Assembly: GCA_947459205.1 (NCBI GenBank) | Contig: CANHCR010000023.1 | Location: 1-36,981 of the forward strand | Direction: 5' to 3' | Length of the DNA stretch: 36,981 nucleotides | DNA from: Caryophanales bacterium | Lineage (GTDB): Bacteria > Bacillota > Bacilli > Paenibacillales > CANHCR01 | Shown here: in pieces, positions 1 to 1,456 of the stretch | How positions within the stretch are numbered: position 1 is the stretch's first letter | Layout of the letters: each line of letters starts with the position of its first letter | The notes under the pieces: model-generated | Databases searched by the model: none | What the model was told of the DNA's origin: nothing | Seen by the model: only the letters and a program-made list of their open reading frames with translations | Position numbers and translations under genes: made by a program

Positions 1-210
1 AGTGGGGGAATTCACGAAAAGGATACTGGCGAATTGCAGGCAGTCCGATTCTTTCAAGGGTGCTGAACAACAAGTACTGGACAGAATGCGGATTGCAAAG
101 TCTGTTGGAACGATACAAACACATGCGTTATATTTCATGAACCGCCGTATACCGAACGGTACGTACGGTGGTGTGAGAGGTCGGGGGCTAACCGTCCCCT
201 CCTACTCGAT
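1..210 (+). mobile_element. Group II intron, 3' part (cut by the window edge)
   Basis: The segment holds the end of an intron-encoded reverse transcriptase, then domain V and domain VI. Domain V folds from 141-172: ACCGCCGT (141-148) pairs with ACGGTGGT (165-172). Above it lie a two-base CG bulge (162-163) and a short stem closed by a GAAC loop (151-160). The CGC in the lower stem fits the catalytic triad of bacterial class C introns. Domain VI is a GC-rich hairpin (about 178-203) with a candidate branch-point A at 204. The intron should end at CGAT (210), which fits the usual AY 3' end. The 5' part lies outside the window. Class C introns typically insert just downstream of terminator hairpins; that cannot be tested here. 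Confidence 0.88.
3..140 (+). CDS. Group II intron reverse transcriptase/maturase, C-terminal fragment
   Basis: Only the last 45 residues are visible, in the frame beginning at base 3. They read WGNSRKGYWRIAGSPIL followed by a tail with NNKYW and LLERYKHMRYIS. The GYWRIA-SPIL pattern with a following YW is typical of the C-terminal end of bacterial group II intron-encoded proteins (LtrA-like), after the maturase domain. These proteins help the intron fold and copy it into new sites by target-primed reverse transcription. The stop codon TGA (138-140) directly abuts domain V, a compact layout. The start is outside the window, so whether the full protein is intact cannot be judged. Confidence 0.85.
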   Translation, partial: WGNSRKGYWRIAGSPILSRVLNNKYWTECGLQSLLERYKHMRYIS

Positions 211-242
211 TTATAAAAAGTGACTCTATCCAACAACTGTCA

Positions 243-272
243 GCATAGTGCGCGTCCATCTCGTCGATGCTA
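243..272 (+). promoter_or_regulatory. Sigma-G type promoter of sspF
   Basis: GCATA (243-247) fits the sigma-G -35 pattern GHATR. After an 18-base spacer, GATGCTA (266-272) matches the -10 pattern CATNNTA except for the first base. Forespore sigma-G control is known for ssp genes in Bacillus. The arms AGCATAG (242-248) and CTATGCT (270-276) also form an inverted repeat around the spacer. Confidence 0.6.
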
Positions 273-302: not shown

Positions 303-485
303 ATGGCACGCAGACGATCCGGCATGATGTCGGAGCAGATGAAAATGGAATTGGCCAAGGAACTCGGGTTTTACGAGACGGTGCAACGCGATGGCTGGGG
401 AGCAATCCGCGCCCAAGATGCAGGCAACATGGTCAAACGTGCGATTCAAATTGCGCAACAGAAATTGAGTCAAAAACAGCATTAA
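303..485 (+). CDS. sspF: Small acid-soluble spore protein, SspF type
   Basis: This 60-residue protein belongs to the alpha/beta-type SASP group as the SspF variant. These proteins coat spore DNA in the forespore and change its conformation, protecting it against UV and other damage. The sequence shows an RRR start, the segment [11 protein letters not shown], then [19 protein letters not shown], which is the conserved SASP core. Length matches B. subtilis SspF (about 61 residues). The ATG at 303 follows a strong AAGGAGG (288-294). It lies upstream of ispE as in B. subtilis, where veg precedes it; here a group II intron occupies the upstream side. Expression is probably forespore-specific, from the sigma-G promoter at 243-272. 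Confidence 0.9.
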
Positions 486-601: not shown

Positions 602-1456
602 ATGAAAATCTTTGAGCGGGCTTCGGCGAAAATTAATTTGTCGCTTGACGTGTTGGGAAAACGAGATGACGGTTATCATGAAGTGGAAATGGTGATGACG
701 ATGGTTGATCTCGCCGACCGTATCGAGATGGAAGACTTAGAACGAGACACGATTATTTTGGCCAGTGAGGCTGGTTACATACCGTTAGATGAAAAAAATC
801 TTGCGTTTCAAGCTGCAAAGTTGCTGAAGACACGTTACGGAGTCACTCGCGGCGTATACATTCATTTGGATAAGCATATTCCCGTAGCTGCAGGATTGGC
901 GGGGGGGAGCAGCGATGCGGCTGCCACTTTGCGAGGTTTGAATCGTCTTTGGAAGCTCGGCATCCCGCAATCGGACTTGGAGACATTAGCCGCTGAACTT
1001 GGATCCGACATTCCGTTCTGCGTGCGTGGTGGGACGGCAGTTGCGCGTGGGCGAGGCGAGCAGTTGCAGTCGCTTGATGCACCGCCGCCGTGTTGGGTGG
1101 TGCTCGCTAAACTGCCATTCAGCGTCTCTACAGCGGACGTTTATCGCAAATACGATGCGCAGACGATGGGCAGGCACAAGTTCACACCGCAAGTGTTACG
1201 TGCAATCGCTGACAAAGATTATTCGCGGTTGTGCGACTCCATAGGCAATGCACTTGAGGAAGTGACCTTGTCGTTGCACCCGCAGGTGCAGCAACTTAAA
1301 GAACTGATGATCCGGCTCGGTGTCGACGCGACGTTGATGTCGGGCAGCGGCCCAACCGTTTTCGCTCTCGTACAAAAAGAAGGCAAGGCGGAGCGCGTGC
1401 TCAACGGACTGCGCGGCTTTTGTCGTGAGGTGCATGCAGTACGCCTGCTCGTGTAA
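602..1456 (+). CDS. ispE: 4-diphosphocytidyl-2-C-methyl-D-erythritol kinase
   Basis: IspE phosphorylates CDP-methylerythritol with ATP, the fourth step of the non-mevalonate (MEP) pathway to isoprenoid precursors, in the cytoplasm. The 284-residue length matches the family. It is a GHMP kinase: K10 in the SAKINLSLDV start and D136 in GSDIPFC are the expected catalytic residues. The ATP-binding loop PVAAGLAGGSSDAA is at about 94-107, and the C-terminal GHMP motif LMSGSGPTVFAL is present. The ATG at 602 is preceded by AGGAAG (586-591). It lies between sspF and purR as in B. subtilis (yabH), and probably has its own promoter at 537-545. Confidence 0.96.
   Translation: MKIFERASAKINLSLDVLGKRDDGYHEVEMVMTMVDLADRIEMEDLERDTIILASEAGYIPLDEKNLAFQAAKLLKTRYGVTRGVYIHLDKHIPVAAGLAGGSSDAAATLRGLNRLWKLGIPQSDLETLAAELGSDIPFCVRGGTAVARGRGEQLQSLDAPPPCWVVLAKLPFSVSTADVYRKYDAQTMGRHKFTPQVLRAIADKDYSRLCDSIGNALEEVTLSLHPQVQQLKELMIRLGVDATLMSGSGPTVFALVQKEGKAERVLNGLRGFCREVHAVRLLV

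Follow-up and report, generated by a model that had tools for sequence, protein, structure and literature searches.

Class C (IIC) group II introns, among them GsI-IIC from Geobacillus stearothermophilus and B.h.I1, recognise a hairpin together with a short pairing to the 5' exon, and Robart 2007 is said to be the original report on terminators as their sites. According to PMC4424553, terminator motifs are the insertion sites of IIC introns, which have no endonuclease and are primed by strands of the replication fork, and PMC4028801 gives the class C boundary consensus as GUNYGCCNRGCAUGG at the 5' end and CCUACYCGAU at the 3' end. The window, by which we mean the whole stretch of 36,981 nucleotides analysed here, opens inside an element that we assign to this class. 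With a probability of about 0.93, we read it as a class C intron in the sense orientation, placed immediately after the intrinsic veg terminator and ahead of the promoter of sspF.

The features at the start of the window are collected in Table 1. The Rfam family RF00029 (Intron_gpII) matches positions 140-210; the score is 44.4 bits, for a gathering score of 40, at an E-value of 9.3e-8 when bases 1-320 were searched and of 1.7e-7 in a search of the genome; the default Rfam scan of the whole window listed zero matches, this one presumably having been dropped by the fast filters. The predicted fold of domains V and VI (141-220) has an energy of -35.9 kcal/mol (z -3.96), and none of 200 shuffled sequences folded as well. 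The initial annotation had proposed a class C-like group II intron ending 92 bases before sspF (intron end at 210, ATG of the spore-protein gene at 303), which agrees with this match, with the fit of both boundaries and with the closeness of a relative's reverse transcriptase (RT) to that of GsI-IIC, as detailed below. Its description of domain V as folding cleanly and carrying a CGC triad also stands, but the bulge that it gave as CG is AC at 161-162 in the predicted fold, a difference of one base in register, and AC represents the usual 'AY' bulge of this domain. The branch point is expected near the 3' end of the intron, and the unpaired A at 204 in the predicted fold of domain VI is likely to be that residue. 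The annotation had also placed the stop codon of the open reading frame against domain V and given the start of the downstream exon; the TGA at 138-140 indeed directly precedes domain V at 141, and TTATAAAAAG is read at 211-220.

Table 1. Features at the start of the window, with the evidence behind each.
Feature	Position	Strand	Basis
Class C group II intron, 3' portion, remainder past contig edge	1..210	+	RF00029 match; 76% DNA identity over 3-211 to G015 introns of 1891 nt
Intron-encoded RT/maturase, last 45 codons, stop TGA 138-140	3..140	+	28/45 residues identical to G015 RT C-terminus
Domain V hairpin with CGC triad (143-145) and bulge A161-C162	141..172	+	RF00029 match and predicted fold
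Domain VI hairpin	174..208	+	Predicted fold
Class C 3' boundary motif CCTACTCGAT, closing the intron at 210	201..210	+	Class C consensus comparison
Candidate sigma-G-like sspF promoter, AGCATA (242-247), 18 bases, GATGCTA (266-272)	242..272	+	Layout by eye against intron-free relatives
Alpha/beta-type small acid-soluble spore protein, named sspF from gene order	303..485	+	PF00269, 30.3 bits, cut-off 22
ispE	602..1456	+	TIGR00154, 307.6 bits, cut-off 138.7

The first base of the window is also the first base of contig C23 in a draft assembly (G000) of 2.52 Mb in 73 contigs, so the remainder of the intron has to be sought on other contigs. Complete introns of about 1.89 kb are present in two genomes of the same order, with four copies of 1891 nt each in G015 and two copies in G001. 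When G000 was searched with one complete G015 copy, 18 matches were obtained at E-values up to 10, four of which were clearly significant: 3' ends on C23 and C7, and 5' ends on C38 and C17. One 5' end closes contig C38 (C38:25135-25281; L129:5136) and the other lies on the minus strand at the start of C17 (L130), thus also at a contig edge. Both 5' ends open with GTGCGCCCAGCATGG. The motif of Table 1 closes the two 3' ends (at 210 in the window and at 148 in L008), which are 99% identical with one difference in 149 positions. The second 5' end and the second 3' end, on C17 and C7, show that G000 has at least one further intron copy. An ill-chosen sequence pattern for the 5' end gave one match on C1 and missed both real ends. 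The last 18 intron bases also occur at the ends of contigs C64 and C26 (L131, L132), where the match extends to 19 bases with the next base included, and in both they sit in a common stretch of 156 bases that is 98.7% identical. No 5' ends matching the C26 and C64 ends were found in the G000 search, and the two ends hint at a third insertion or at a repeat that includes an intron 3' junction.

The two ends of the proposed copy agree with the class C consensus. The 5' boundary fits at the end on C38, whose linkage to the window is presumed, and at the end on C17, while one relative's intron (L036) is one base off; the 3' boundary fits at position 210 of the window and at L008 148. Among solved structures, the 420-aa RT of G015 is nearest to the GsI-IIC RT (E 1e-164), with LtrA at 3.3e-39, and by Pfam it contains RVT_1 and GIIM only, without an endonuclease domain, whereas the window's own copy is readable for its last 45 residues only. 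This tail shares 62% identity with the C-terminal end of the complete G015 protein and, being so short, was assigned to no family by Pfam. These comparisons of sequence support the assignment of the window element to class C. It is a known kind of element at an ordinary kind of site.

The genes around the two contig ends suggest how they belong together. Upstream of the 5' end on C38 are rnmV-like and ksgA-like genes, identified from their translations, followed by veg and a terminator hairpin, whereas the 5' end on C17 is preceded by lipA-like and yutD-like genes, likewise identified from translations, and a hairpin of 16 pairs; the analysis of the latter also listed one unrelated site of 5 pairs. 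The veg gene on C38 matches PF06257 with 92.9 bits against a cut-off of 25, and its NCBIfam score of 97.6 bits is below that family's own cut-off of 135. Veg was matched in 59 of the 60 genomes searched, G000 included; 58 relatives thus had a match, and the region downstream of veg was examined in the best 29 of them. In all 29 loci, an sspF homologue follows after 89-292 bases, a gap too small for the intron, which is absent there; the annotation had suggested such a comparison with intron-free relatives. In G000, veg precedes the 5' end at the close of C38, while sspF comes after the 3' end at the start of C23, and the order in the relatives supports joining these two ends. No sequence in the assembly bridges the C38 and C23 ends, which are on different contigs. 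The repeat has two 5' ends and two long 3' ends, and the intron sequence by itself does not tell which belong together. The 5' end on C38 could then be paired with C7 or another contig and that on C17 with C23, or a rearrangement involving the intron could have occurred, but given that veg is directly followed by an sspF homologue in 29 of 29 loci, we consider this very unlikely. Much the simplest interpretation is a single intron separating veg from sspF, with an inferred linkage across two separate contigs. The annotation had suspected the terminator of the upstream veg gene as the insertion site and had asked for the 5' splice end and the insertion hairpin; both are found on the separate contig C38, with the 5' end directly behind the veg hairpin, and they bear out the suspicion in so far as C38 adjoins the window.

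Parts of the intron are found at several contig edges of G000, and the intron is the likely cause of the contig break at the first base of the window. Its interior of about 1.5 kb, as judged from the G015 introns, with most of the RT, is absent from the assembly. The last-numbered contigs C71, C72 and C73 are 3592, 3547 and 3373 bases long, and a contig of 1.5 kb with the interior could therefore have been lost to a minimum length of about 3 kb. The G000 genome yielded no group II RT core, and a GIIM search gave a single match of 15.7 bits, below the cut-off of 23; an intron copy from which the RT has been deleted is therefore possible. Three RVT_1 matches in G000, two on C10 and one on C71, were considered as the missing intron RT and rejected as loci of the type found in diversity-generating retroelements (DGR), since they carry IGNMTSQ where the G015 group II RT has QGGPLSP, a difference in motif that we take to distinguish the two kinds of enzyme. 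These loci (L009 3582-5495 and L010 2248-3521) are alike, with 74% DNA identity, and the RT on C10 is near a bAvd gene. Each of the two RTs is split over two frames, and both may thus be broken or mis-sequenced.

With its interior absent from the assembly, the copy might instead be a dead remnant that has lost part of its RT or ribozyme and can no longer move by itself, and one of the six complete relatives examined does have a broken RT frame (L036, with 289 codons between stops compared with 425-461 in the other five). We regard this as unlikely, although less so than an altered pairing of the ends, in that the intron has canonical ends, the reading frame of the RT C-terminus runs unbroken to its stop codon, and near-identical ends at different sites point to recent movement. 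On our reading, the copy between veg and sspF would include the middle of the RT and may be mobile.

A hairpin of 16 pairs with a T-run precedes both 5' ends in G000, the one on C38 being located behind veg, and a terminator-like structure precedes the 5' end at all six sites in G015 and G001 as well as at these two. To place this in a wider context, we collected loci from named genomes with a probe for the conserved intron end, namely the open frame of 73 codons at 2-220 rather than the RT frame at 3-140. Within the best 80 of 458 confirmed places, a 5'-end profile gave 40 hits, of which 37 were kept and 3 dropped, the kept ones starting within 3 profile positions and having at least 50 bases upstream. 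A terminator-like structure was present at 32 of these 37 5' ends, compared with 139 of 2000 random positions drawn on both strands of the same loci, in intergenic regions and elsewhere. The profile was built from the G000, G015 and G001 ends and so favours similar introns, the thresholds were set by us, and the 37 sites are non-independent, as several genomes contribute many of them. Among the five that failed, the upstream bases of L102 at 4189 are the 3' end of another intron, L048, L052 and L054 (Alicyclobacillus mengziensis) have hairpins with few T residues, and L070 is without a T-run.

Downstream of the intron, the product of the gene at 303..485 had no family match in NCBIfam. The annotation had set the start of the sspF promoter 32 bases past the intron; the position, 242, is right, and the promoter itself is plausible by eye, with two mismatches in its second element. 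We take it to be sigma-G-like by comparison with the sigma-G consensus. By eye, some relatives have similar layouts, for example CGAATG-N18-CATACTA (L147, L148), GGAATG-N18-CATACTA (L153) and TGAATG-N18-CATACTA (L150), and the layout is missing in others. The motif CATA[CT][ACT]A occurs in 23 of the 29 veg-sspF gaps of the relatives but is missing ahead of sspF in the window, which has GATGCTA there, two mismatches away from CATACTA; GCATAGTG at 243-250 may compete with it as the second promoter element. The 12-mer CATAGTGCGCGT occurs exactly twice, at 244-255 upstream of sspF and at 568-579 upstream of ispE; with up to one mismatch, a mean of 0.26 occurrences is expected, and two or more were seen in 4 of 100 shuffles. 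An inverted repeat, AGCATAG/CTATGCT at 242-276, overlaps the proposed promoter.

Upstream of the intron, the veg hairpin is intact, as is most of its T-run, and with the candidate sspF promoter also remaining, the insertion is probably near neutral; it seems to spare veg and sspF and would be harmless. From its position alone, flanked by a terminator that acts during growth and a promoter of the forespore, the intron might have gained a regulatory role in veg read-through or in sspF expression during sporulation, which we consider the least probable of all the readings.

The introns in G015 and G001 resemble the window copy at the DNA level, with 76% identity over 3-211, but the 5' exon ends with TTAA at five of their six sites but with TTGTT at both G000 sites. 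In G027, from another family, the intron 3' end is found at 90% and 92% DNA identity while Veg is 53% identical, which fits horizontal transfer. Across a broader set of 392 genomes of the order, a match at an E-value of 1e-30 or better was present in 25, one of them G000. The near-identical ends, the likeness to G027 and this occurrence fit a mobile element of recent spread, as far as sequence comparison can indicate.

These results are best explained by a scenario in which a class C retroelement would have inserted in sense orientation just past the veg terminator, using strands of the replication fork as primers as described for its class, and in which the intron is predicted to splice out of any transcript that reads through the terminator. 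Repeats of this kind can break draft assemblies, and the edge of the window is itself probably a product of the intron. The locus provides a clean example of class C introns landing at terminators while seemingly sparing the neighbouring genes, and leaves the known picture of these elements unchanged. Compared outside its interior, the copy differs in no respect that we found from GsI-IIC and B.h.I1, and it is like them in its boundary motifs, in the CGC triad and in following an intrinsic terminator with the same orientation as the gene upstream.
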